Of a stretch of 30,383 nucleotides of DNA, positions 2,012 to 22,244 are shown in pieces. The translations under genes were made by a program, and so were the position numbers. The notes beneath the pieces are model-generated. The model ran no database searches and had not been told where the DNA came from. It was given only the letters and a program-made list of their open reading frames with translations. Position 1 is the first letter of the stretch. Every line of letters begins with the position of its first letter. The DNA comes from a virus: IMG/VR virus record IMGVR_UViG_3300050014_000236, positions 1 to 30,383 of that record; one strand, 5' to 3'.

Positions 2012-3232
2012 CTAAACCCAGGGCGTCCCGAAGCTCTGTCGTTCATGCCAAAGGGTGCTTCCGATGTCGTACACCCATGTGGCGCATCCACTGAAGAAAT
2101 TGCAAACCACGAATTTATGTCCCTCCTGGTCGAGAACGAACATGCTGACGTCGTTGAACTTCAATGGATATTGTGCCCATGCGTGCTCCATCGCAAAGGT
2201 GCTTATTCGCGTGGGCTGAAACCCATTCAGGCGGTAGGAGATCCCATCTTCGCCGATCCAGAAAACCGTATTGTCCTCTGAGCACACCGCATAGGGCGAC
2301 GCCAGACCACGGGCAATTTGCGCTGCGTCATACCGCAGAAACGGGAATGTCACGGCTCCCGAGTCCCACCAGATTTCCGTATAGGTCCGGCAAAACAACA
2401 GCAACTGCTCATGATATATCTCCACGGCCTGAATGAAATCGCTGCCCGAACTGGCGGTAGCGAAGTCCAAACCAGAATATTGCGTTCCATCGTTAATCGA
2501 AGACAGAAAGAACTGCCGAGTGTTCTTCGCACTGAAGACGAAATAACCGTCGAAGTAGCGAACCGTTGTCGCCGGCTGGAAGGACGGAGCGGTGATCGCC
2601 GCCAGCGTATTGGACGGATCGATGATAATGGCGCCCGCGGTGAGGACTGCCGGAAGCGGATCAGCAAACGCGATACCGAGATCCAACGGTCCCACAGTCA
2701 CTGTTGCCGTCGTGGTCAACGTCGCGCCGCTGTCGAGTGCTATGAAGATCGTGTCGCCGCTGGTAATCGTCCCTATGATATTCGCTTCGACGAAAGTGGC
2801 GCCAGCTTCCTGAGTCGCCGTCGTCACCTGATTGAGACCGCCCCACTGAAAGATCCAGGCCACGTCGCCATCGACCATGACTAACTGGTTGGCATTGTCC
2901 GCCATGGAAACATAGAGTCCTCCAATCGACGTCTCGCCCCAGAATGTTGCCGGCACCGACGTGCCCGCCGGGGCATTGAGCGCGTCGGAGTAATTGATGG
3001 ACCAAAGCTCCCCGCCAGATATCGCATACAGGGTATCCAGCATGATGTGCATCTGCTGCACTGGCCCGTTGCCGAACCGAGAGAACAGGTTGAGCCCGGG
3101 AATGCCATAGATCGGCATTTGGGTCTTGCCTTCTTTCGGTGTCGGCTCGACGAAGGCGTTCATGCACTGCTGCGCGAGCAGTTGCATGCTTCTGGCCTGA
3201 TAACTCTGGGCTGCGAACTGAAGTTCAGCCAT
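2012..3232 (-). CDS. P22 gp10-like tail hub / DNA-stabilisation protein, N-terminal part
   Basis: This 406-aa protein resembles phage packaged-DNA stabilisation (gp10-like) proteins, which form the hexameric ring under the gp4 ring and close the portal. Recognisable segments are an N-terminal QSYQARS-QLLAQQCMNAFVE region, the central RYFDGYFVFS and SGLDFATASSGSDFIQAVE segments, and TEIWWDSG / FPFLRYDAAQIARGLASPYAV followed by DNTVFWIGEDG. Residues about 155-206 hold a beta-module (SGDTIFIALDSG) shared with neighbouring tail proteins. The protein stops at SFGTPWV, where full-length relatives as I recall them continue for another 60-150 residues; a matching C-terminal segment is found in the gene at 5203-6606. 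GAGG lies 8 nt before the ATG. It follows the gp4-like gene by 3 nt, as expected for successive tail rings. Confidence 0.75.
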   Translation of the reverse strand: MAELQFAAQSYQARSMQLLAQQCMNAFVEPTPKEGKTQMPIYGIPGLNLFSRFGNGPVQQMHIMLDTLYAISGGELWSINYSDALNAPAGTSVPATFWGETSIGGLYVSMADNANQLVMVDGDVAWIFQWGGLNQVTTATQEAGATFVEANIIGTITSGDTIFIALDSGATLTTTATVTVGPLDLGIAFADPLPAVLTAGAIIIDPSNTLAAITAPSFQPATTVRYFDGYFVFSAKNTRQFFLSSINDGTQYSGLDFATASSGSDFIQAVEIYHEQLLLFCRTYTEIWWDSGAVTFPFLRYDAAQIARGLASPYAVCSEDNTVFWIGEDGISYRLNGFQPTRISTFAMEHAWAQYPLKFNDVSMFVLDQEGHKFVVCNFFSGCATWVYDIGSTLWHERQSFGTPWV

Positions 3233-3235
3233 GGC

Positions 3236-5203
3236 CTATCCTCGCCGCGCGCCGGGGTACATGGCAACCCCGAACATTACCGACTCAGGTTCCCGATCCC
3301 ATCCCTGGGCCATGCGGAGCTTTTCGGCCGCCTGCATCCCCACTGCCTGGAATGCGCTGATCCGTGCCATCGCGCCATAACCGACGCCGGTCTCAGGTTC
3401 CTTTCCGTACTCCGGCCAGAGTTCGAGTGCCAGGTTGAAGGCAATGGCGTTCTGCCATTCGACCGGGAAATCCGCGCTAGAGGTAAGGTCCGTCAGCAGC
3501 GCGATCGGCCTCTGGGCTGTGAACCGGAACCCGAACTGATTATTCGACGGGCTCGGCCATAGGTTGAGCAGTGCTGAGCCAAGCTGAGATGAGCCAAACG
3601 GCGTTGGCGAGGTCTGCGGATCGTAGAAGAAGGCCGTTTGCACGCCGGTCGTGTTCTTGTTCGGTTGCTGCTGATAATCGAGCCGCGCCCACATCTGCAT
3701 CGGCGTGTCGATCCGGCTCAGATAATTGTATCGTCTGCCGCCGTAGACCCGGAGCGGCCGGATCAACGGCGTCGTGTAGTCGAAGACGATCGCCGGCGCG
3801 CTGGCCTGAGACGGGACCGAGTTCGTAAGCGTCACGACATTACCCGCCGGCGCACCGTTCACGGTTGTCCAGAAATTCGTACCCAGGTCGAGCTGGATCC
3901 CAATGTTGTCCCCGCTCTGCACGCCGGAGGCGGACGTGAGTGTGATCGTCCCGGCGCCGGCCGCCGCGGTGACCGCCAGCGTGGTCTGAATGAGCGTGTT
4001 GAACAACGTGGCATGATCAGTGCTGGCGCTGCTTATGGAATAGCGCGGTTGCGCTGGCTGAGGGAAAAGGATCGCCTCTTCCTCACACCAAACATGGATG
4101 TCGCTGGCCTGCCATTGTTGGATCAACGCGTTCAGCGCGATAATGCCGTTGTTCACCAGGCCAAGCGCGGGGACGTCCTGCGGCCCGATGGCGTTACAGA
4201 TTCGCAACGCGCGTGCGATCAGTTGATAGACCGGCTGGACGAATGGCAGCGTGCTGGTCCCGGTATCCTCTTTATCCCAGGCAATCAGCATCTCCAGCTT
4301 CGGCCCGGCCTGCCCCTTGATGATCTCCATGATCGTAGGGGGAACCCCATACTCGGGCCCGATCTCGGCGGCGAGCATCCATTTGAGCGCGGCCAACCAC
4401 TCCGCCGGGAAGTCCGGGATGTTGGCGAGCGTGGCGAAGTCCTGGATCGGCCGTTGCGCGGTGAACCGAACAGCCATCGTGTCGTTGAGCGCCGCCGGGT
4501 AAAAACTCATGACCGCGATCAAATTGGCGTAGGCACCCTGGCCAGTCTGCGGATCGAAGAAGAAGTTCTGAACGATGCCGGTCGCTTGTTTCGTCGACAG
4601 GTTCGCGTAATCGAGCCGCGTCATCGGGATCAAGGGCGTCTCGGACTGCGTCGCATATGTGAAGCGCCGCGCGCCGCGCACTTTCAGCGGTCTGGATAAC
4701 GGCGCGGCAAAGTCGAAGACCAGATTGGTCAATGAAGCCTGCGAAGGAAGTGCGGCGGTCAGCGTGATGGTTGCTCCCGATGGAGCGCCGTCTACGGTGG
4801 TCCAGAAGATCGAGCCGACGTCGAGTTGAATGCCGATCGTGTCGCCGCTGTTGATCCCTGCAATCGAGGCGACGGTCGCTGTGGTGCCTGTCGAATTGAC
4901 CGTGATCGAGGTCGTCGTGAGATCAGCGAACAGGCACGCGTTATCAGGACTACCGGCGCCAAGCTGATAGCGCGACTGCCCCGGTTGCAGGAACAGAATT
5001 GCCTCCTCCTGGATCCAGACATGCGCGCCAGAGACCTGGATGTTTTTGACCAGAAGATTGAACGCGTCGAGGCCATTTTGAAGTTCGACGCCAGCGGGCG
5101 TCTCATCCTCTCCGATGGCCTGACAAATACGGAGCGCCGCCGTCAGAAGGCTGATCGCCGATGCTGAGTAGGTGTAGGTTCCGCTGGTGGTGAGGACTGC
5201 CAT
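3236..5203 (-). CDS. Tandem-duplicated P22 gp4-like tail accessory factor (fused double copy)
   Basis: This 655-aa protein is two homologous halves in one frame: residues about 17-312 and 327-638. Shared landmarks, in order, are ALRICQAIG / ALRICNAIG, HVWIQEEAILF / HVWCEEEAILF, SGDTIGIQLDVG / SGDNIGIQLDLG, FWTTVDGAPSG / FWTTVNGAPAG, LPSQAS / VPSQAS, RPLKVRGARR / RPLRVYGGRR, RFTAQRPI in both, DFPAEW / DFPVEW and GPEYG / WPEYG. The fold resembles the gp4 tail accessory factors, which bind under the portal as a dodecamer in P22, here with a beta-module inserted in each half. The start overlaps the upstream stop as TAATG, with AAGGGG about 8 nt ahead. The family call is inference from motifs and from position next to the gp10-like gene; the duplication itself is seen directly. 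Confidence 0.8.
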   Translation of the reverse strand: MAVLTTSGTYTYSASAISLLTAALRICQAIGEDETPAGVELQNGLDAFNLLVKNIQVSGAHVWIQEEAILFLQPGQSRYQLGAGSPDNACLFADLTTTSITVNSTGTTATVASIAGINSGDTIGIQLDVGSIFWTTVDGAPSGATITLTAALPSQASLTNLVFDFAAPLSRPLKVRGARRFTYATQSETPLIPMTRLDYANLSTKQATGIVQNFFFDPQTGQGAYANLIAVMSFYPAALNDTMAVRFTAQRPIQDFATLANIPDFPAEWLAALKWMLAAEIGPEYGVPPTIMEIIKGQAGPKLEMLIAWDKEDTGTSTLPFVQPVYQLIARALRICNAIGPQDVPALGLVNNGIIALNALIQQWQASDIHVWCEEEAILFPQPAQPRYSISSASTDHATLFNTLIQTTLAVTAAAGAGTITLTSASGVQSGDNIGIQLDLGTNFWTTVNGAPAGNVVTLTNSVPSQASAPAIVFDYTTPLIRPLRVYGGRRYNYLSRIDTPMQMWARLDYQQQPNKNTTGVQTAFFYDPQTSPTPFGSSQLGSALLNLWPSPSNNQFGFRFTAQRPIALLTDLTSSADFPVEWQNAIAFNLALELWPEYGKEPETGVGYGAMARISAFQAVGMQAAEKLRMAQGWDREPESVMFGVAMYPGARRG

Positions 5204-6606
5204 TAACCGAGCCCCTTATTGAAATCTCCATAGGCGCCGATAATGGCAGGCCGTGCCGCGTCCGAATAGGTGAGCCGGAATATCCACTGCCTGGCGTGAC
5301 CAAGCGCCAGCCACCGCAAGCGCTTGCGATACTCCCCGGCGGCTCCCATGGAACGGAATTTCTGCATCGGTTGCCACGTCACGCCGCCGTCCTTCGATAT
5401 GTCGAGCACCATGATTGGGGCGGTCTCCGGGGCGTTGGGAAGTCCGAGCCCTGCCTCAACCTCGATTTCGAACCTCGGAACGAAGATGCGCTTGCGGTCA
5501 TCGTGCATCGGGGGGGATGTCACCAGCATCCGCATCGGGTTGCTGTATTCCTTGAAAATGGTGAAGTCCGACAGGCCGATGACGTTGCTGAACTTGTCGC
5601 CCACAAGTGCCATGCCGTGCCAGTTGATGCCGCACAGGCCGCGCCAGCCGCAGAGCGTGGCCCCGGCGCTGACGGGCGCGAAAACCGTGCTGGTAGAGCA
5701 TTGCGTGAGGGCAGAAAAGCCGCTGTCACCCGCGCCATTGATGGCATTGACCTTGAACTCATAGGCAGTGCCCCGGTCAAGGCCGGTAATAACCTGACTG
5801 GTCCCGGTAATCCCCGTTATCTCAGTGAAGGAGACATCGAGCACCTTGCGATAATCCAACGTGTAGGATGTCGCCGCGGCGCCGGCCGGTGTCCAGGAGG
5901 CTGTAAAGCTGGAGGTGGTATGCGTGTCGCCGCAGAATGGGGCTGGAACACCCGGCTGTAAGGGGATCGCCGTCAGGAATACCGCGACACCAACGACGTT
6001 TCCCACTCCAGCCGCGAAGTCGAACACATCCCGGACAACCGCCGATCCAAGCGCTATCAAGGACGAAAGTTCGTGCGCGAGGCCCTGGCCGGATACTTGC
6101 GCGCCGCCCAGATTGCTGGACCCGCTGAATGCGGCGCCGACCATCCAGTAATTATAATTGCCGCCGGCCGCGAAATTGGCAGCGACGCCGCCACCCCACC
6201 AGGCTGAGAAGATATCAGCCGTTGGATTGACCAACTCGAAATAGTATTGGCCGGTCGCGTAGCCATCGACCGCCTGCGCCATTCCGGCAGCAGTCGGAAA
6301 GGAGCAAGCAAGGTCCGCTCCGCTTATCGACGCACTGCCATAGAGCTTGGTCGGATCGAGCGTGGTGAAGCCGCCGCCGACATGCGGCCAGCCGGCGGTG
6401 TATCCAGAGGGAACGGAGAATGAAAACCCCGTCGCGCCGAAATTACAGGTGATCCCGGCATCGCCGGTCGCCTGGACTGTCGGGAACATCGTGGTGCCAG
6501 CCATCGCCGAAATGTCGATGCCGCCAACGTTGGCAACCGGATCGGCGGACGGGCTGCCGTTCCATTCGCCGTTGTTCAGTCGAAACCAGACCTGAAAATT
6601 CGCCAT
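5203..6606 (-). CDS. Chimeric tail protein: beta-rich N-terminus, Fn3 domain, gp10-type C-terminal domain
   Basis: The protein has 467 aa. Residues about 1-210 form a Gly/Ala-rich beta region that could be SPRY/concanavalin-like (weak call). Residues about 217-307 look like a fibronectin type III domain, with SFTASWTPAG, SYTLDYRKV, ITGLDRGTAYEFKVNAING and ending in SGFSA. Residues about 318-464 resemble the C-terminal part of gp10-like proteins: WRGLCGINWHGMALVGDKFS, PPMHDDRKRIFVPRFEIEVE, DISKDGGVTW, GAAGEYRKRLRWLALGHAR and FRLTYSD. This is the part that the gp10-like gene at 2012-3232 lacks. The stop overlaps the next start (TAATG). The Shine-Dalgarno is weak, suggesting coupling to the gene ending at 6608. 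Confidence 0.7.
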   Translation of the reverse strand: MANFQVWFRLNNGEWNGSPSADPVANVGGIDISAMAGTTMFPTVQATGDAGITCNFGATGFSFSVPSGYTAGWPHVGGGFTTLDPTKLYGSASISGADLACSFPTAAGMAQAVDGYATGQYYFELVNPTADIFSAWWGGGVAANFAAGGNYNYWMVGAAFSGSSNLGGAQVSGQGLAHELSSLIALGSAVVRDVFDFAAGVGNVVGVAVFLTAIPLQPGVPAPFCGDTHTTSSFTASWTPAGAAATSYTLDYRKVLDVSFTEITGITGTSQVITGLDRGTAYEFKVNAINGAGDSGFSALTQCSTSTVFAPVSAGATLCGWRGLCGINWHGMALVGDKFSNVIGLSDFTIFKEYSNPMRMLVTSPPMHDDRKRIFVPRFEIEVEAGLGLPNAPETAPIMVLDISKDGGVTWQPMQKFRSMGAAGEYRKRLRWLALGHARQWIFRLTYSDAARPAIIGAYGDFNKGLG

Positions 6607-6607
6607 T

Positions 6608-7081
6608 TCAGGTCAGACTCAGTTGAAGCACCGAGTTCTCGATCGGATCACCGAAGAGCGACCCCACACTTGCGGGAAGCGGTGTGGCCAATGTGAAGAT
6701 ATACCCGGAAATTCCGCCAATATGGGTCAGAAAATTCTCGCCGCTATCCAACATGATCTGGATGCGATTGCCGATCGAGAAGCCGACAGTAGAGTCTACG
6801 GTGATGGCGCTCGACTGACGCGCGGACGGGGCGGTCACGAAGGTGCCAAGGATGACGAACTGATTGACCTGCCGCGGCCGTACGAGTTGGGCCACCTGAT
6901 CGTCTCGTACGCCAGTTACGAAATCCTGGGGTTGCTGCGGTTCCCACCGGTCCGGAGCCACCGCCAGATTGCCCGTCTGGCCGCCAGGAATGATGCGGGC
7001 TTTCGACGCGCGGATTTTGAAGCCGCTCAGGTCGTCTAAAATATAGTTATCTCCGCCTATGTAATGCCGATCATCAGCCGT
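6608..7081 (-). CDS. Conserved phage tail-region protein, probable ACG start
   Basis: The frame encodes 157 aa if begun at ACG (7079-7081). The first in-frame ATG, GTG or TTG is the GTG at 6961, which would cut off the first 40 residues. Those residues (ADDRHYIGGDNYILDDLSGF then KIRASKARI) read as genuine protein and match the pattern of a conserved phage family with an N-terminal SG-(F/L)K-(V/I)RAS motif followed by PQDFV-GVRDDQ (residues about 51-62) and PRP. A consensus AGGAGG lies 8 nt before the ACG. Residues about 91-150 carry the beta-module with IGNRIQIMLDSGENF. The gene lies between the tail spike and the chimeric tail protein. Function unknown; a virion component is likely. Confidence 0.75.
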   Translation of the reverse strand, partial: TADDRHYIGGDNYILDDLSGFKIRASKARIIPGGQTGNLAVAPDRWEPQQPQDFVTGVRDDQVAQLVRPRQVNQFVILGTFVTAPSARQSSAITVDSTVGFSIGNRIQIMLDSGENFLTHIGGISGYIFTLATPLPASVGSLFGDPIENSVLQLSLT

Positions 7082-7089
7082 GACACTAC

Positions 7090-7095
7090 CCTCCT
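7090..7095 (-). promoter_or_regulatory. Consensus Shine-Dalgarno (AGGAGG) selecting an ACG start
   Basis: On the minus strand AGGAGG is followed by an 8-nt spacer and then ACG, in frame with the gene below. A GTG 3 nt after the site and an ATG further on both open a frame that hits TAG within about ten codons, so neither can start the gene. Confidence 0.7.
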
Positions 7096-7141
7096 GGTTA
7101 TCCCGCGAAAAGGAATTGCGATAAGCGTGCCGGGGCGGACG

Positions 7142-9631
7142 CTACGCTACCTCGGCCATATCCAGCACCGCTACCCAATCCCATGCGGACGAGTTCCCGG
7201 TGGGGTTTGTGCAGGTGATGTTGAAGCCACCGTTGGTGGTGTCGGCGGTGACAGAAACCGCAGCTCCGGTGACGGTGCCCCTTGTGAGTGCGACGGGCGT
7301 GCCGAGCGCGAGGGCCGTGGTCGCGAGCGTTCCATCGACGGAAATCATACCCTCGACGGTCCAGTCATAGTCGGTCCCGGAGGTGGTCGCGTTGCGCCCG
7401 TGAACCTTAATCGAGAAGTGCGCCGCGGAATTGATCGGCATATTGCATATCGAGGTTGTGGTCGCTGTGGTCGCGGAGGTTGCAAACAGCCGAACGGATG
7501 CTCCGGTCGTGGTGCCAGAGAGTACCATACGGGAAGACTGGAACTGCCCAACCGATAATGTATTGCCTCCGAGGATAAGCGCCGGTCTGCCGCGGTCAGT
7601 AGCGCGTGACCCGCCTACGACAGATGCGTAGCCGGTGATGCTGCACGAGTCACCAGCCGCGGCGAAGGCATAAGTGCCGGTATTTAGCGTATTGTGTCCG
7701 CCTACGCTACCGCCACCGAAGCTTGCTACAAAAACCGCCGCGCCTCCAACTTGCACCGAGGCAAAGCCGGACGCGCCACTATTGGAGCCGCCGATCTCTA
7801 CCACGCCAGAGGTGGTGGTTGGTCCCGACAGAATATTGATGTTGCCCGTTCCACCAAACGGAACCGGGTAGGGGTTATTTGATAGCGTATACCAGCCGTT
7901 TGCCCCCGGCTCCACAGTCGGTAATGGAAAAGAGTTCGCTTGATCGATATGCTCAATCGTTATGTTTGAGGCAGGGGACGGGACAACAATCGTAATGGTG
8001 TCGCCAGCAACCGGGGTGCCGGTCAATGGGATAACCAGATCGGTTAGCGCCAGGACGCCACCGGAAACAGCAATGTCGGTCTGGACGTGGCCACCAGAGG
8101 GAACCGTGGTCGTGGTCCAGTGCGTGCCGTCAACCGCCGTCAAGAGATATGTTCCGGCCACTGCGGAGTTTGTAGCGCCAAGTGAGAACGTCACAGGAAG
8201 CGCGATTGCGACCGCAGCGACAAAACCCTGGGGAAACGATACCGTTGTTCCTGTTACGCCCGAGCAATAGAAGTTGTTCGGGATGCCCGTATAGTAGCCT
8301 CCGGCTGAAGCGGTCATCCCCACCGCGACACCTGTAGTGGACGCGAAGGATAGCGAAACACCACGAAACCCCGCAGTGGCGCTTGTGTTGATCGTCACGG
8401 GATGTAAGGCGGTGGTTCCAGTGTTTCCGGCGCCCAAGGTGAATGTAAGGCCAGAGTTGTAGCCCTGGACAACCGCTAAGCCTCCCTTGATAACGCGTTG
8501 ACTATACGCCGGGCCTTGAACCTGGAGGCCGTTTGGCATGATATAGCCGGTATTAGCGAAGACGATCGGGCTACCGCCCTTGTTGGTGGGGTCCACCGAG
8601 CTGGTCGCTTCGAAAATCAGGTTATTGTCAGAGTTGCCGAACACGATCCCGTCACCTTTGGCATACCAAGCCGTCAGGTTCCGCATCTGGTTGTAGCTGA
8701 CGTTGAACGTGCTGGCAGCGGACCCGCTGTCAAACAGGATGCCAGTCGGGCTGTAGGTGCCAGATGTTGAGCGGGAGTTTACATCAATGACGTTAAACTG
8801 GCAGCCGGGGCTATCCTGTCCCGATCCAGCCCAGGTATTCATCCAAAAACCGACCTGCCGCGGTTCGGAGACGCCAACCTCGAAGTTGGAAAAAGATACC
8901 TCAGTTAGCTGGACGCACACATCCGCCAGGCTGGCGCCATCAAAGACGATGCCGGTGATGTCGTTTTGGTAGAGCGACTGGGTGCCTCCGGGAGTAACCG
9001 TAAGCATCGTGGCCCCGCCGGCGCCCGTCCACACAAGCCGGGTCACGGCGTAGAAAATCGTCGGTGCGTTGTCGCGCGGAATGCCGCGGCCTGCGCCTTG
9101 CAGTTTCACGCCCGCCGTGTTGATGACCAGAGCCGTGGCGATATTGTATGTGCCAGCCGGAACAATTACCGTTCCGCCGCCCGCTGCCGTTGCCGCAGTG
9201 ATCGCCGCCTGGATAGACGGGCCAACATCACCTGCCGAGTTCCAACTGTAGGCCAGAGCGTCGTAAATCGATCCAGGAACGACATTCCCAGCGTCAAAGA
9301 TAGCGGCGCCCGTCATGGTGCCGCCCGCCAGCGGGAGGGCCGCCGATTCAGGAGCGACAGTGAACAGGTTCGCGCCATAGGCAGTAATGACAAGTTCGCC
9401 GTACTGGCCTGTCGTCGCGAGGTCGCCGCTGAGACCGTTCGCTGTCACACCCGAGCCGGCCGTGATCGTGACAGGGCCGGCCCCTATCTGGAGCAGCGTC
9501 GTGCGGAACGTCCTTGGAAGGCCGCCCGGCAGTGTGACCGCGACGGAAGATCCGCTGAAGTAGGCCACCACATTATTGTTGTCAGACGCCTGGAGGACGT
9601 CTGTGGTGCCTTGAACCGGCCGAACCGCCAT
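7142..9631 (-). CDS. Tail spike with pectate-lyase-like beta-helix
   Basis: This 829-aa protein starts at an ATG with AGGAG 9 nt upstream. Residues about 135-183 (DVGPSIQAAITAATAAGGGT, VIVPAGTYNI, VKLQGAGRG) are the hallmark start of the pectate lyase superfamily right-handed beta-helix used by many phage spikes and depolymerases. The first roughly 115 residues are a distinct beta-rich segment that probably attaches to the virion, with the LPLAGGTMTGA motif common in fibre necks. The C-terminal part is Gly/Ser/Thr-rich beta structure. Expected role: binding or degrading host surface polysaccharide. The catalytic residues cannot be assigned by eye, so enzymatic activity is unproven. Confidence 0.8.
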   Translation of the reverse strand: MAVRPVQGTTDVLQASDNNNVVAYFSGSSVAVTLPGGLPRTFRTTLLQIGAGPVTITAGSGVTANGLSGDLATTGQYGELVITAYGANLFTVAPESAALPLAGGTMTGAAIFDAGNVVPGSIYDALAYSWNSAGDVGPSIQAAITAATAAGGGTVIVPAGTYNIATALVINTAGVKLQGAGRGIPRDNAPTIFYAVTRLVWTGAGGATMLTVTPGGTQSLYQNDITGIVFDGASLADVCVQLTEVSFSNFEVGVSEPRQVGFWMNTWAGSGQDSPGCQFNVIDVNSRSTSGTYSPTGILFDSGSAASTFNVSYNQMRNLTAWYAKGDGIVFGNSDNNLIFEATSSVDPTNKGGSPIVFANTGYIMPNGLQVQGPAYSQRVIKGGLAVVQGYNSGLTFTLGAGNTGTTALHPVTINTSATAGFRGVSLSFASTTGVAVGMTASAGGYYTGIPNNFYCSGVTGTTVSFPQGFVAAVAIALPVTFSLGATNSAVAGTYLLTAVDGTHWTTTTVPSGGHVQTDIAVSGGVLALTDLVIPLTGTPVAGDTITIVVPSPASNITIEHIDQANSFPLPTVEPGANGWYTLSNNPYPVPFGGTGNINILSGPTTTSGVVEIGGSNSGASGFASVQVGGAAVFVASFGGGSVGGHNTLNTGTYAFAAAGDSCSITGYASVVGGSRATDRGRPALILGGNTLSVGQFQSSRMVLSGTTTGASVRLFATSATTATTTSICNMPINSAAHFSIKVHGRNATTSGTDYDWTVEGMISVDGTLATTALALGTPVALTRGTVTGAAVSVTADTTNGGFNITCTNPTGNSSAWDWVAVLDMAEVA

Positions 9632-11670: not shown

Positions 11671-12579
11671 TCACACGCCCGGAGTTGCGAAAGCGCCACG
11701 CCAGTCTGACCAAAACGCCGAGTACCGCTGGTAGCAAGCAGCCTTCGCGTTCTTGGTGTCGAAGTCGTTGTCTTGATCGAAGGTGATCTTGTCCCGATCA
11801 AAGTATTGCAGGCTGCGCGGGATGTTCGTCCTGACGAACCACGCCGTGCTGCTTGAGAAGTAGTGGTTGACCTTGATCCCTTTCGGAAAGGCGCCGGTCG
11901 CCCGCAGCACGTTGATCGCGTTGTTCGCAGTGTCGTTCTGTAGAACCGAATGGTAGATCCGGTTCGCCTCGAACCAAAGCGACGGCGGGATGTTCAGCGA
12001 CTGCGGCAAGCCCGAGATTTTCATGCCGCGGTTGTTGGTCATCTGCATGATCTGGATGCAAAGGTCTTCGACCGCGGTTTCAGAAAGGTCGGCGGCCGTG
12101 GTCAGAAGATTGCTCTGATTGCCGGACAACGTCGGATGCGCCGTCGAGAACAGCGACACACCATCGGCGCCCAGGTAGCCAGAGTTGAACCCCTGATTGT
12201 AGACGGCGGAAAGGATGTTTTCCTGGGTCTGACGCATGCTGAAGGCCAACTGCTGCGCCCGGCGGCGGGACACCACCTCGTAGAGGTCGTCTCTCAACTC
12301 CTCGAACGTCACGATGTAGCCCAGAGCGTAGGCAACGTGCGTGTAGCGGCTGACCGGCCCCTGCGCCTCAACGTCGTAGAATATCTGCTGGCCCTGCGGC
12401 TTCACCGGCGCGAGACCAAAGCCGGTGATCTCCGGCTCTTCCTCATACGCCTTGTCCGAAGTGTCGATCTCGAACAGATCGGGGTACTCGGGAACGTGCT
12501 CGCTGTAACTCCGTCCCCACCACCCCTTGACCCCCGGCCAGAGCGCCTTGGGATGGGAGCCTGTAGTGATTATGGCCAT
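11671..12579 (-). CDS. Major capsid protein, Mu gpT-like HK97-fold
   Basis: This 302-aa protein begins MAIITTGSHPKALWPGVKGW. The segments EVSRYTHVAYALGYIVTFEEL-like (PVSRYTHVAYALGYIVTFEE), RRRAQQLAFSMRQTQE, GVSLFSTAHPTLSGNQSNLL and the late KVNHYFSSSTAWFVRTNIP segment are typical of Mu gpT-like major head subunits. Length is as expected for the family. It lies downstream of the scaffold and the 201-aa protein, the usual position. The start has GGAG/AGGA upstream. It should build the icosahedral shell around the scaffold and GroEL may assist its folding, given the phage-encoded GroES-like protein upstream. Confidence 0.88.
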   Translation of the reverse strand: MAIITTGSHPKALWPGVKGWWGRSYSEHVPEYPDLFEIDTSDKAYEEEPEITGFGLAPVKPQGQQIFYDVEAQGPVSRYTHVAYALGYIVTFEELRDDLYEVVSRRRAQQLAFSMRQTQENILSAVYNQGFNSGYLGADGVSLFSTAHPTLSGNQSNLLTTAADLSETAVEDLCIQIMQMTNNRGMKISGLPQSLNIPPSLWFEANRIYHSVLQNDTANNAINVLRATGAFPKGIKVNHYFSSSTAWFVRTNIPRSLQYFDRDKITFDQDNDFDTKNAKAACYQRYSAFWSDWRGAFATPGV

Positions 12580-15987: not shown

Positions 15988-16328
15988 GCCCGATATGGCT
16001 TCAGGCTATCGGGCAGATCCAGATCATAGAACAGCCGCAACTGATCCAACGTCATAGCCTCCATCTGATGCGCGCCGAGCAAGTGGCCTTTGACCTGCTC
16101 TTGCTGCGCGAGCGAGGCGCCGTTCACCAGCCACGCTTCCAGAATCTGGCGTTCGAGCGATGCGCGGAAGTCCGGGAGATACCGTCCGAATATCAGGTCG
16201 GTGACCGGATGGCGTTTCCACATAGCCCACTGCTCGGGGCTGAGTTCACGGAGAAGCGGGGGGACTCGCTCCTCCCCCGGCATCGGCGGTGGGACCGGCT
16301 GGCGGGGGCGATAGGGTGGCAATGGCAT
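15984..16328 (-). CDS. Small head-region protein overlapping the portal gene (114 aa)
   Basis: Begins with a Pro/Arg-rich stretch (MPLPPYRPRQPVPPPMPGEE) and continues with SPEQWAMWKRHPVTDLIFGR, ERQILEAWLVNGASL and DQLRLFYDLDLPDSL. The frame overlaps the 3' end of the portal gene by 83 nt. A later ATG at 16283 would shorten it but has no visible ribosome site. Similar small proteins follow portal genes in podophages. Function unknown. Confidence 0.65.
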   Translation of the reverse strand: MPLPPYRPRQPVPPPMPGEERVPPLLRELSPEQWAMWKRHPVTDLIFGRYLPDFRASLERQILEAWLVNGASLAQQEQVKGHLLGAHQMEAMTLDQLRLFYDLDLPDSLKPYRA

Positions 16329-19300
16329 CGACCTGTGCTTTCAGGTGTTCAATATGTTGCTCCACCCACCCCAGTTGCGCGTCATTGTCAAGCTTCCTCG
16401 CCTGAGCCAACGCCAATTCGGCCTTGCATATCTCCCCGATGATCAGCGCCTTGTCATGTTCGTGGCGCAACATCAGTTCGATCATCTCCCGTTTCTCGCG
16501 GATATCCAGCTCGCGGCTTTTCAGCAGAATCTTTGGATCAGGCTGCGCCGGCGCCTCTGTCATGTAGCTTTCAGCGTCCGGGATCATCGCCGCGGTGAAC
16601 GCGTCGAGAATGATTTTCTCCCCCTTGACGCGAGGATCATCCTTGAAGGTCAGCAGGAACTGTGCCCTGCCGAGGCGTTGCATGTCGGTAACCATCTGCG
16701 GATCACTGATCGGCTCGACGCCGGCGCCTTTTTCGTAATCTTCCCTGGTGATCGTCTTCCAGTCGCCGCCTTCCTGGTACTGCGATTCCTTACGGCTATA
16801 CTTTCGGTTCAGCTGGTATTGTTTTTTGAACTCGTAGCCGAGCGAGCGGTGGATCCGCTTGTAGATCGCGGAGAACACCTTCAGGCCCTGCTCGATCACT
16901 GCCAGCGTCGTGATGCCTGAGGTGTTGTCGCCCGGCATGTCGCCGACCATGACGTCCTTCACGGAGGCGACACGTTCGCCAGATTCGATCAGGAATTGCA
17001 GCAACTGCATCAGGATCGGGTTGGGGCCAGGGAACGGTATCTGGTAAATGTTGTCGCGGATGTTCCCGCCGAACGTGTTGACCGGCTTGTACTCGCCATG
17101 GGTGAACCGGACCGTGCCGGTATTGATCGACAGCCCGGACCCGATGAAACCGCCGCCGACGATCTGAAGGTGCCCGGAGTCGATCATCATATTTATGGTG
17201 GTGTTCACCGCTTCGTTGATCGGAAACAGGAGATGCCCGAAGCCAAGATCGTAGACCTTGGAGTCGGGGTTCGGGATGAACCCGTATTTCGTATAGACAG
17301 CGACGACGTCGATTTTCCGAACCTGGCCCTTCCGGTTGAAATGCACCCCATCCATTTCGAAGCCGGCGACGATGCGCGCGAGTTTGCCGCTGTCGCGCGC
17401 CACGGTGATGATGTACGGCTCGGGATAGCCATCGCCATCCAGATCCCAGCGCCGATGCTGTTCCAGGAAGGTGACCGCCGCGTCCTCGTCCTGCTGGCTA
17501 TTGGGATCGCGCCGCTTCTCGTCCTCCATGGTGACGCCGCTGTCATGGCCATAGGCCAGCGCACCGTCACCGTCCCAATCAATGAACAGACCGGAGCGGA
17601 TCGCTGTCTCGATTTCGTCCGGGTACATCCGGATCGACTCTGTTTTTCGAGGCGATGTCTCAAAGCTCTTGGCGTAATAATTCACGCATAGCGCCAGTGC
17701 GTCGACAGTCTCGCTCACGTTCCGGCCGAGGCTTTGATCGTAGTAGGACTTGCGGAAATACGTGCCGACGATCGGGAGTGCCACCAGAAGCGTGTCGGTC
17801 TGCGGTTCCCATTCCTCTTGTTCGAACAGAAGCTGCCAGCTCATGTGCCGGCCGATGCGGAGCGCTCGCTTTTGCTTTGCCCCGGGCTCTTCCAGCCACT
17901 GCCGCGGCATCCCCGCCGGGAGCCCCATACCGGGGCCGGCCTGTCCTGGCGGCGGCATTCCGGGACCCGGCTGAGGCGACGCGGCCGGTCCTGACTGCTG
18001 CATAGGACCAGGGCCTGGGGGTTGAGCGCCAGGAGGCGGGCCGCCCGGCGGTGGCTGCCCTCCCTGCTGTTGCTGCTGCGCCATCGCCTGATCATGCGCG
18101 TGCGCGGCTTGTAGCAGATGCACAAACGCCGGATTGATCACGCCTTTGTCGTCGCCAATGACGGTGCCCTTGACGACGTTGCGATCTCGGATGATCGCCG
18201 GGTAAGCGCGGGCGGCAAATTGGATGGCCGCCGTCGTCATCAGCGGATATATGACATTGGAGTTGCCGCACCAGAGGGCTTTGCCGTTGCGGCGCACATA
18301 GAGTGTGTGGTGCGGTTCGACGGTGACGCAGGCGACCTCGCATGGTCCAAAGACCGCTTGCCGGTCCATTTTAACGACCTGGATACGGGACTTGCGGTTG
18401 ATCGCGATCAGGTAGCAAGTTTGAGCCCCGGTGATTTGCCGCCCGTTGATTACCCCTCCGACGACCGCCGCTCTTTCCGCCACGGTCGCGCGCCAGCCAA
18501 TCTTCTGACATATGTCCTGCATCTGGTCGGACAACCGGCGGGAAACAGTAGAATAGGACCAGCTTTCCTCCTTTCCATTGCGTTCCCGAATGCAGCCATC
18601 ACCGGCCATCAGGCCATCAAGGAGGGCCTTGAGTACCGGAACGGACGCTGTCAGCAGGTAATCAGGCACATGTTTCTGGTGTGATAAACCAAGCGATCTA
18701 AGTTCGTCTTTCGCAGCATTGGGCATCGACCTGGCATGAACGATGTAACCGGTGGGCGTGGCTTTACAGGTGAACCTACAGGCTTCGATGTCGTGCCGAA
18801 GGCGTTCGAACTTTACGGGGTTGGCGGTCTGGCTCTGCGCGATAGCGAAGCTGCTCGGACTCTTTCCATAATCCCTGAAAGTTCCATCCTTCAATGTGTG
18901 GGTATTGTGTCCAGTGAAGGCCGAGCCCTCGGAGATGTACCAACCCAGGAATCGCGCGTACGCCTCCGCACTTACCCCATGGATCTCCGACAGGGGGTCG
19001 CCCGTCCACTGCGACGTAAGCGGGATGTATCGAAATGCCAGACGCTCCTCCAAGAACCGCCCCGCCTCGATGAAATGCTGCTTCTTCCGCTTGCCGAACT
19101 TGCTCTCGACCAACATCCTGTGGTTCGGCGTCACCATCAGGTCGATGCTCTTACCGGTGAAATGCACCATTGACAGAGCCGTGAACCGATGGCGCTCGGT
19201 CACCGGATAGAATGCCGCGGCACCGGATGGCGCGCGACTGAGGACCCTTTCACCGATGGCGATCTCGGCGACTGGCTTCCAACCCGAATCGGTCAGAACA

Positions 19301-19677
19301 TCGGTATCGAGTGAAAAGCACGCCTCAGGCCATGGATAGGTTTTGTGCTCAGTGACCTGCAAAGCGCAGTCCAGCCACTTGCGATATTTCTCGCGCCAGT
19401 CGGCCCGGCTCAGTTCGTCGATGTCATAGTCAGAGCGCACCCGGGCCGCGATGCGCGCGATATCGTCACCGATCTCCGGGTTCGGTTCCATATTGTCGTC
19501 GGGATCGGCCGCGATGTTCTTCATGCCAACCCAGCGCGTCAGTTGATCGCGTAACTCTGGATTGGGATGATCATCAGGCTCAGAGGAGATGGGCGGGGAC
19601 GCACCGGTCCCGCCGGCGAGGGCCGCGATAGAGGATATGCCGTTCGGCGGCGGCGGTGGGGCGAGCGTGGCACTCAT
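16246..19677 (-). CDS. Portal protein precursor, P22-like, interrupted by an intein
   Basis: The 1143-aa precursor contains a 353-aa intein (residues 120-472), leaving a 790-aa portal. Joined exteins read HKTYPWPEA-SNVIYPLMTTA and then QFAARAYPAI, the conserved PWPxASNV / FHARAYP block of P22-like portals. Further portal segments are HMSWQLLFEQEEWEPQTDTL, LPIVGTYFRKSYYD, RIYKRIHRSLGYEFKKQYQL-like (YKRIHRSLGYEFKKQYQLNR) and a C-terminal helical segment near residues 1085-1115. A Pro/Gly/Gln-rich stretch (about 533-592) is inserted between two conserved blocks. It forms the dodecameric DNA channel, docking TerL and then the gp4-like ring. GGAGGT lies about 10 nt before the ATG. Confidence 0.9.
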   Translation of the reverse strand: MSATLAPPPPPNGISSIAALAGGTGASPPISSEPDDHPNPELRDQLTRWVGMKNIAADPDDNMEPNPEIGDDIARIAARVRSDYDIDELSRADWREKYRKWLDCALQVTEHKTYPWPEACFSLDTDVLTDSGWKPVAEIAIGERVLSRAPSGAAAFYPVTERHRFTALSMVHFTGKSIDLMVTPNHRMLVESKFGKRKKQHFIEAGRFLEERLAFRYIPLTSQWTGDPLSEIHGVSAEAYARFLGWYISEGSAFTGHNTHTLKDGTFRDYGKSPSSFAIAQSQTANPVKFERLRHDIEACRFTCKATPTGYIVHARSMPNAAKDELRSLGLSHQKHVPDYLLTASVPVLKALLDGLMAGDGCIRERNGKEESWSYSTVSRRLSDQMQDICQKIGWRATVAERAAVVGGVINGRQITGAQTCYLIAINRKSRIQVVKMDRQAVFGPCEVACVTVEPHHTLYVRRNGKALWCGNSNVIYPLMTTAAIQFAARAYPAIIRDRNVVKGTVIGDDKGVINPAFVHLLQAAHAHDQAMAQQQQQGGQPPPGGPPPGAQPPGPGPMQQSGPAASPQPGPGMPPPGQAGPGMGLPAGMPRQWLEEPGAKQKRALRIGRHMSWQLLFEQEEWEPQTDTLLVALPIVGTYFRKSYYDQSLGRNVSETVDALALCVNYYAKSFETSPRKTESIRMYPDEIETAIRSGLFIDWDGDGALAYGHDSGVTMEDEKRRDPNSQQDEDAAVTFLEQHRRWDLDGDGYPEPYIITVARDSGKLARIVAGFEMDGVHFNRKGQVRKIDVVAVYTKYGFIPNPDSKVYDLGFGHLLFPINEAVNTTINMMIDSGHLQIVGGGFIGSGLSINTGTVRFTHGEYKPVNTFGGNIRDNIYQIPFPGPNPILMQLLQFLIESGERVASVKDVMVGDMPGDNTSGITTLAVIEQGLKVFSAIYKRIHRSLGYEFKKQYQLNRKYSRKESQYQEGGDWKTITREDYEKGAGVEPISDPQMVTDMQRLGRAQFLLTFKDDPRVKGEKIILDAFTAAMIPDAESYMTEAPAQPDPKILLKSRELDIREKREMIELMLRHEHDKALIIGEICKAELALAQARKLDNDAQLGWVEQHIEHLKAQVDAIATLSPPPAGPTADAGGGASPPASP
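18262..19320 (-). mobile_element. Full-length intein with LAGLIDADG homing endonuclease, in frame in the portal
   Basis: Intein residue 1 is Cys (CFSLDTDVLTDSGWKPVAEI, block A). Block B carries the TxxH motif in DLMVTPNHRML. The two endonuclease motifs are FLGWYISEGS and LLDGLMAGDG, each with an acidic residue in the expected place, so the nuclease may be active. Block F is CVTVEPHHTLYVRRNG, and block G ends ALWCGN followed by Ser as the first C-extein residue. The penultimate residue is Gly instead of the usual His. There is no stop or frameshift, so splicing is expected to restore the portal. The insertion is at the conserved PWPEA/SNV motif. Length is typical of endonuclease-containing inteins. 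Confidence 0.92.
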
Positions 19678-20567: not shown

Positions 20568-20789
20568 ATGGCTGTCCGATCATTACCTTCTCAGGAAGAC
20601 CTACGCAACCGTCTCGAATACAACTCAGAGACGGGTGAGCTTTTTTGGTGGCCCAGACCAAAGTCAGACTTCCGGTTTCTGCGCACATTCAACGCATGGC
20701 ACACGCTGAACATAGGCCGCAGCTCGCCTTCACGGGGAATTTGGACGAGGTTCCTAATATCCCGTGACAGTCGAGCGTCGGCCCGCTGA
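20568..20789 (+). pseudogene. Truncated HNH-type homing endonuclease, N-terminal remnant
   Basis: The ATG has GGAGG 6 nt ahead. The product starts MAVRSLPSQEDLRNRLEYNS, then ETGELFWWPRPKS and FLRTFNAWHTLN, the N-terminal pattern of free-standing phage HNH endonucleases (L-Y-PETG-W--RP---F--RAF--WN). The HNH catalytic core and any AP2-type DNA-binding region are missing: similarity ends near residue 52 and the frame runs antisense into the 3' end of terL. It is therefore a decayed endonuclease gene that once sat between terL and the next gene, opposite to the operon. The 73-aa peptide should be inactive as a nuclease. Confidence 0.65.
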
Positions 20790-22244
20790 TATTCCTTCGT
20801 AATCTCTCTGCCGTGCCGCATCAAACTGCGGCCCAGTCAGGATGCCGGAGCCGAACACCCGGGTGGCGGCATATCCCAGCGCGTCCGCCACATGAGAAAA
20901 TGAATTCTTGTCTGGGACCGTCGTGAACCGATCGCCGGTAATTCGAAGTTTTCTGTAGTGATATCCACCGAGAAAGGCTCTCCGAAGAATCTTGCAGCGC
21001 GGGTGCAGCACGAATTGCGGGCGCCCCTCTTTCAGCATACGGAGCGGCTTACGAACTGACTCAAGCCTGATCTCCAGGGTCTGAATGGCCGGTTCGATCG
21101 GAATGCCGAGCGCGTGCAGCACGTCGAAATAGGTCCGCATGTCGGTGGGCGAGCGCGACATACCCGCCGGATCTCCAACGTCCCAGAACTCGAAGCCCGG
21201 ATAATACCGCGCGCTATGGTCGAGCACCGCCTCACCGATCGTGGTAGCGCCCATCTCAGTAGCCACGATCTCGTCAAAAACGATCCACTGGCCGCGCGGC
21301 GTGATCTGGGTAAACACACATGCCGGCGTCAGGCCGCTGCTATCCCAGCCACGGACGATCGGCAGATTCCTGATCGGCTTTGGCCAATTTTCCTTCTTCT
21401 CCGGGCAATGAATATCATCCGAATACTCCGGCCAGACGGCCTTTCCGTCCATCTCGAAGCCATATTCGCCGTGAATGTAGATCCGGATCCACTCCGGGCT
21501 CTTCCCAATGGCGAGACGTTCATAATACCCGGGCGGCAGGTTCCGAAGATTTTCCGCCGCGGCAGACAGGCCGGATGGCTGTTTGAACAACGCCCGGTAC
21601 GTCTCGACGGTCAGACCCGTGAAATCCGGAACCTTGGCCAACTTCGCGACCGCCTCGGAATGGTCGGTCTCCTCGAAAAACTTGAACCATTCTGAGTCAA
21701 CGTCAGGCTGATTGGTGTCCATCCACAAGCCGGACCAGAACACCGGAACGTCCTGACGGCGGGGATATCGGCCAAGGCGCCCCTGCAATGCGTCGATGAT
21801 TTGCCAGGGCGTCTCGCGCCCTTCGTTCACCCAGGCGCCGGTCAGATCGAGCGACAGAAGATCGCGGATCTGGTCGGGCCGGTCCAGCGCGCGGAAGAGC
21901 ACTTCGACCTCGGCGCCCCGGTCGTCACCTTCCCCTTTCAGGTTGCGGATCGTGTAATTGTGCTTCGATGGTGTCCAGTCGCCGAACTGGTGGGGTGGAA
22001 ACCAACTCAGCCATGTACGCTCGGTGGTGTCCTCCAGCTGCTTGCTGGTCGACCTCACGACAGCATACCGACTGCGCCGAACACCGTCCGGCCCGCGTGG
22101 AACGGCTACGCCCCTCTGGGCTATTTCGATCGCGCACGCTGAACTTTTCCCGGAGCCAAATGGCCCCGATAGGCCCCTGATAAATGCGTCCGAGTCGAAA
22201 AAAGCTCCGATGGTCGGCATGTCGGAGCAGTTGTAGATCGCCAT
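20754..22244 (-). CDS. terL: Terminase large subunit
   Basis: This 496-aa protein has a Walker A motif GPFGSGKS (27-34) and a Walker B-type strand LLSLDLTGAWVNEGRE (about 129-144), giving the ATPase. The C-terminal RNase H-like nuclease has the expected acidic residues in GWDSSG (D301), DVGDPAG (D355/D358) and SHVADALGYAA (D454). It packages DNA by docking on the portal. The ATG overlaps the upstream stop by one base (TAATG). The small-subunit gene is not adjacent but about 6.6 kb upstream, which is unusual. Confidence 0.93.
   Translation of the reverse strand: MAIYNCSDMPTIGAFFDSDAFIRGLSGPFGSGKSSACAIEIAQRGVAVPRGPDGVRRSRYAVVRSTSKQLEDTTERTWLSWFPPHQFGDWTPSKHNYTIRNLKGEGDDRGAEVEVLFRALDRPDQIRDLLSLDLTGAWVNEGRETPWQIIDALQGRLGRYPRRQDVPVFWSGLWMDTNQPDVDSEWFKFFEETDHSEAVAKLAKVPDFTGLTVETYRALFKQPSGLSAAAENLRNLPPGYYERLAIGKSPEWIRIYIHGEYGFEMDGKAVWPEYSDDIHCPEKKENWPKPIRNLPIVRGWDSSGLTPACVFTQITPRGQWIVFDEIVATEMGATTIGEAVLDHSARYYPGFEFWDVGDPAGMSRSPTDMRTYFDVLHALGIPIEPAIQTLEIRLESVRKPLRMLKEGRPQFVLHPRCKILRRAFLGGYHYRKLRITGDRFTTVPDKNSFSHVADALGYAATRVFGSGILTGPQFDAARQRDYEGISAGRRSTVTGY

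Follow-up and report, generated by a model that had tools for sequence, protein, structure and literature searches.

A probable two-chain tail hub of the gp10 kind, with exchanged modules at its break

The hub that closes a phage tail and retains packed DNA would be expected to be among its least tolerant parts. Can such a hub be encoded by two genes that stand in reverse order with another gene between them? This question is raised by a virus record of 30,383 bases (IMGVR_UViG_3300050014_000236), which was analysed over its whole length and is called the window here. The window has genes for the terminase (20754-22244), the portal (16246-19677, minus strand), and the major head protein (11671-12579). 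Its tail block is found on the minus strand, where three consecutive genes, transcribed from right to left, encode proteins of 467 aa (5203..6606), 655 aa (3236..5203), and 406 aa (2012..3232). There is little space between them: the 467-aa gene's stop codon and the start of the 655-aa gene overlap, and three bases past the next stop the 406-aa gene begins. Packing this tight would be expected within one operon. The 406-aa protein (N10) and the C-terminal piece of the 467-aa protein (C10) probably constitute a two-chain tail hub of the podovirus type (the P22 gp10, Pam1, and Pan3 kind), with an exchanged module at the break.

Two genes matching one family

The 467-aa protein consists of three parts. 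An unnamed domain, module X (residues 1-214; 5965..6606, minus strand), is about 66% shared with three relatives (L010, L011, and L014). It is followed by an Fn3 domain (residues 230-302; 5701..5919, minus strand; Pfam PF00041, E = 1.4e-10) and by C10 (approximately residues 315-467; 5206..5664, minus strand). A SPRY-like nature of module X was an impression from reading that neither Pfam nor NCBIfam confirms.

Because Pfam does not recognize N10 and matches C10 only weakly (PF11134, E = 0.034), PHROG profiles and profiles of our own were used. Residues 1-402 of the 406-aa protein match positions 3-327 of phrog_578 (PHROG 'head closure Hc3', 486 positions) with an E-value of 8e-67, and residues 321-458 of the 467-aa protein match positions 332-465 with an E-value of 1e-22. 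With a profile built from 24 unsplit gp10 rows only (472 positions), N10 covers positions 4-319 and C10 covers positions 323-469, without overlap. When every stop-to-stop frame in the window of 50 aa or more is searched with this profile, no others match. These matches support the reading of the 406-aa protein and the last 150 aa of the 467-aa protein as complementary, non-overlapping parts of one gp10-like hub. The initial annotation had proposed such a split hub, with the C-terminal piece fused behind an Fn3 domain, the pieces in reverse order, and a duplicated gp4 gene between them. All of this is borne out. It had also named matches to different families as the result that should count against the proposal; both pieces match the same family.

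In unsplit relatives, the motif WHERxS is followed by a short loop and then by GRWRG, and by alignment the break is in the loop between the two motifs. The two chains together match the gp10 family over its length, and a gp4-like gene adjoins the hub genes in the tail block of the window and its relatives. Members of phrog_578 are normally single polypeptides; here there are two genes in reversed order, so the pair, a gp10-like hub by sequence, is filed as a variant of the family. Both pieces match, and jointly cover, the family of the packaged-DNA stabilisation proteins P22 gp10 and Sf6 gp8 and the hubs of Pam1 and Pan3 (structures PDB 8u10, 8eap, 7sg7, 7eeq, and 9vyg).

Relatives and history of the split

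About 17 distinct relatives have the same break (contigs L006 to L019, L039, L066, L073, and L078), and their N10 proteins share 45-67% identity with that of the window. In contigs that include both ends, N10 stops at the same residues and C10 is in a separate gene; the end of N10 is mostly WHxRxSxGxxWV*. The abrupt end SFGTPWV*, which had first drawn attention to the gene, is thus present and is not peculiar to the window. L009 is an exception: its N10 chain continues into a 278-aa extension, so that an extra module is found there and C10 is nearly alone (163 aa). In L016 and L067 the contig end cuts the second gene. A partner is present wherever the contig is long enough, and no relative was found to end at the same place without one, which the initial annotation had held to be the other result against a split.

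The gene order in the relatives is gp4, N10, and C10, with a single gp4. C10 upstream of gp4, together with a duplicated and fused gp4, is found only in the window and four near-identical contigs; the gene order is the same in these five records, which span 15.8-58 kb. In about 80 more distant loci the hub is a single chain, mostly of 450-500 aa, and some are longer with inserts elsewhere. When the gp10 core is used for a tree, with the N10 insert domain removed, the split proteins form one clade with support of 100/100. The clade is kept after adding 17 more unsplit relatives (SH-aLRT 100), and it is recovered in separate trees of the N and C parts with support of 99 and 94. Because the clade is fully supported and the relatives' pieces are adjacent in normal order, the simplest history would be that the hub split once, at the base of the clade, and that relocation followed in the window lineage alone. 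The initial proposal that the C-terminal domain had moved therefore applies to the window lineage, where the move came after the split. The order C10-gp4-N10 could have arisen if gp4-N10-C10 had been duplicated in tandem and some copies then lost; this is a guess, and alone it leaves the fused gp4 unexplained.

A search of genome contigs found no relatives, and in the phage collection matches are only in annotated records and are unsplit where examined. N10 occurs once per contig, and so does C10 wherever the contig reaches it; only in L018 are there two C10 genes, and these bear different modules. Among contigs of the split clade, which extend to 72 kb, none shows an intact gp10; all of these records are metagenomic and may be incomplete, so that a distant intact copy could be outside the view.

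An assembly error, a misread stop, or a decaying gene would be another way to explain the locus, since the window has an unusual arrangement for which only near-identical records are known. The same order is found, however, in all five of them, the split is kept across the clade, and frames and spacers differ between genomes. In four genome pairs, dN/dS is 0.05-0.21 for N10 and 0.10-0.24 for C10, well below 1, although some synonymous distances are saturated. These values show N10 and C10 to be under purifying selection and retained together, and artefact or decay is the least credible of the explanations weighed here. Between-genome distances of N10 and C10 are correlated (0.88, slope 1.1), as those of linked genes would be anyway.

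A full-length hub could also be made from one message in the relatives by stop read-through, frameshift, or splicing, with the separate pieces as by-products. Several relatives have C10 in frame with N10 with one or two stops between, as this would need. The frame of C10 relative to N10 nevertheless varies within the clade (0, +1, and +2), some genomes have two stops, and in the window the reversed order means that a single forward read cannot join the pieces. Production from one message is highly improbable.

Predicted fold and the closing blade

The fold was predicted for L039, in which the pieces are in frame with one stop between and were read as one chain. The alignment has 48 other rows, including unsplit homologues and the pieces of the window. 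The model has a mean pLDDT of 88.6 (about 95 for N10, 50 for the linker, and 90 for C10) and a pTM of 0.84. In Foldseek, its TM score normalised by target length is 0.90 to Pan3, 0.85 to Pam1, and about 0.80 to P22 gp10; the propeller and platform fold, with TM scores of 0.79-0.90 to Pan3, Pam1, P22, and Sf6, is a result for the L039 model. Because unsplit homologues are in the alignment, the model is evidence that N10 and C10 together are enough for the fold, and not that they associate. The prediction for the lone 467-aa protein, for which the alignment is much shallower, is poor except for Fn3, and it was therefore left out of the fold search.

In the strand list of L039, N10 has six blades of four strands, and C10 opens with three strands followed by the platform. 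In T7 gp12 and SU10, the propeller is closed by a velcro in blade 1 and the platform uses both chain ends (PMC6702177, PMC9509320). From the strand order of L039 together with this published topology, we infer that the break falls immediately ahead of the blade that closes a seven-bladed propeller. The fourth strand of this blade would come from N10 residues 46-52, and the blade would be made between the two chains. When aligned to the strands of the model, residues 1-54 of N10 in the window (3071..3232, minus strand) are predicted to include platform strands (about 1-45) and the velcro strand (about 46-54). These are the parts expected to pair with C10, and their mean column identity in the clade is 0.77 (platform) and 0.82 (velcro).

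In the proposed mechanism, N10 would contribute six blades of the propeller, the velcro strand, and the N-terminal platform strands, while the remaining platform and three of the four strands in the closing blade would come from C10. The hub subunit would be an N10-C10 heterodimer with its propeller closed between chains, and six heterodimers would assemble into a ring underneath the gp4 adaptor. An exchangeable cassette, here the unnamed 214-aa domain and Fn3, would be attached to the free ends at the break, and the C10 gene of the window lineage would have moved later to its place upstream of the duplicated, fused gp4. Association of the chains, stoichiometry, ring assembly, and the role of the modules are what we infer. 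The suggestion that the pieces could rebuild one ring in two chains is supported by homology and fold prediction.

Alternatively, N10 alone may form the ring, with C10 as a separate module anchor that completes neither propeller nor platform. Such an anchor would fit the exchange of modules described below, the presence of a module on or beside every C10, and the two C10 genes of L018. Judging by the L039 model, however, N10 by itself would have an incomplete closing blade, short of three strands, and little of the platform, and it retains the N-terminal segment meant to pair with the missing strands. Moreover, the platform motifs of C10 are conserved (mean column identity 72%), and unsplit relatives need both parts. 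A ring of N10 alone is therefore unlikely, and a hub closed between N10 and C10 is preferred.

The two-chain hub resembles the P22 gp10, Pam1, and Pan3 family in predicted fold over nearly the whole length and in the adjoining gp4-like adaptor gene. It differs in having two chains, modules at the break, and an insert domain in N10; the window also has the reversed order. The nozzles T7 gp12 and SU10 gp17 are alike in the seven-bladed propeller, the velcro closure, and the platform from both chain ends, but they are single chains with a weaker structural match and have additions at other blade junctions. The L039 model has TM scores of only 0.25-0.38 to T7-type nozzles, and no sequence match to T7 gp12 is found in a PDB profile search. 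In SU10 and crAss001, Ig-like domains are added to the propeller.

Modules, other breaks, and neighbouring genes

Modules ahead of C10 differ between relatives. L010, L011, and L014 have the window type, several have Fn3, and others are unnamed; Fn3 is only one among several interchangeable modules at the break. The module of L007 has HAF repeats (NCBIfam, E = 4e-10). LamG-like modules in L006, L012, L015, and L017 were an impression from reading that Pfam and NCBIfam do not confirm, and L009 gives a weak LamG hint (E = 0.14). With labels assigned partly by eye, the module types need at least nine changes on the tree. Between L010 and L014, N10 differs in 14-38% of bases, the stretch between the end of N10 and the beginning of C10 in about 2% (up to 7%), and C10 in about 20%. 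Between L015 and L017, N10 is 84-100% identical, C10 is nearly identical, and the module is mostly 70-88% alike. Such comparisons of aligned sequences show that modules at the break are swapped between phages, with sharp boundaries at both hub pieces.

T7 and SU10 dock fibres close to the same part of the hub, and the modules by this analogy probably face outwards and touch the host surface. Since the L018 contig has two C10 genes, more than one module per virion can be envisaged. A possible, more tentative extension of the two-chain hub is a socket that lets mixed C10 modules enter one ring, so that tip specificity would evolve by cassette swap and not by fibres alone.

Here, then, the hub is interrupted at a single precise position, which is preserved throughout a clade and serves as a site of domain exchange. 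The locus provides a naturally occurring split point for a phage hub and, probably, an example of a propeller that two chains close together. A split gp10 was not described anywhere in the limited literature searched. The locus also warns that genes annotated as Fn3 or as hypothetical can conceal the C-terminal part of gp10.

A second break is found elsewhere in L050, where the hub in a 546-aa protein (2342-3982) stops at a platform loop, and its remaining end is encoded by a 150-aa gene (6761-7213) three genes further on. Because this break is in another loop, it suggests that hub splitting occurred more than once. L167 (6014-7687) ends in the same platform loop with a different domain, and its contig stops before the rest; it may be another platform-loop split. 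In the 956-aa protein of L018, Fn3 is inserted in the platform loop where L050 breaks. Separately, single-chain gp10 relatives of about 820-980 aa (L071, L075, L076, L079, L081, and L144) have large inserts in their N-terminal half, another site of domain addition.

The 655-aa gp4-like adaptor, whose gene separates N10 from C10, is duplicated in tandem, and its two halves share 42% identity. The halves may be each other's closest relatives (AU p 0.158). If the adaptor ring has 12 positions, like those of T7 and SU10, it would be filled by six fused chains, one for each hub subunit. Dual tubeA (gp4) phages such as PhiGT1 and Bcep22 also have two gp4-like units per genome, in adjacent separate genes (PMC10386132); here they are one fused chain, and the hub protein is split.

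A domain of about 75 aa is common to N10, where it forms the insert (about residues 139-205; 2618..2818, minus strand), and both gp4 halves (3767-3988 and 4694-4915). It is absent from unsplit gp10 relatives, is doubled in L018, L019, L066, and L073, and is related to a small gene at 6608-7081. At this place (6608-7141, minus strand) a 117-aa ORF was called short: its similarity to relatives reaches back to about 7081 (ADDRHYIGGDNYILDD), and no start codon of the ATG, GTG, or TTG type was found there.

The portal gene of the window encodes 1143 aa, with the portal match at residues 606-1094. The protein also contains, at about residues 120-210, a Hint domain and, at 349-402, a LAGLIDADG homing endonuclease domain, and the gene probably carries an intein.
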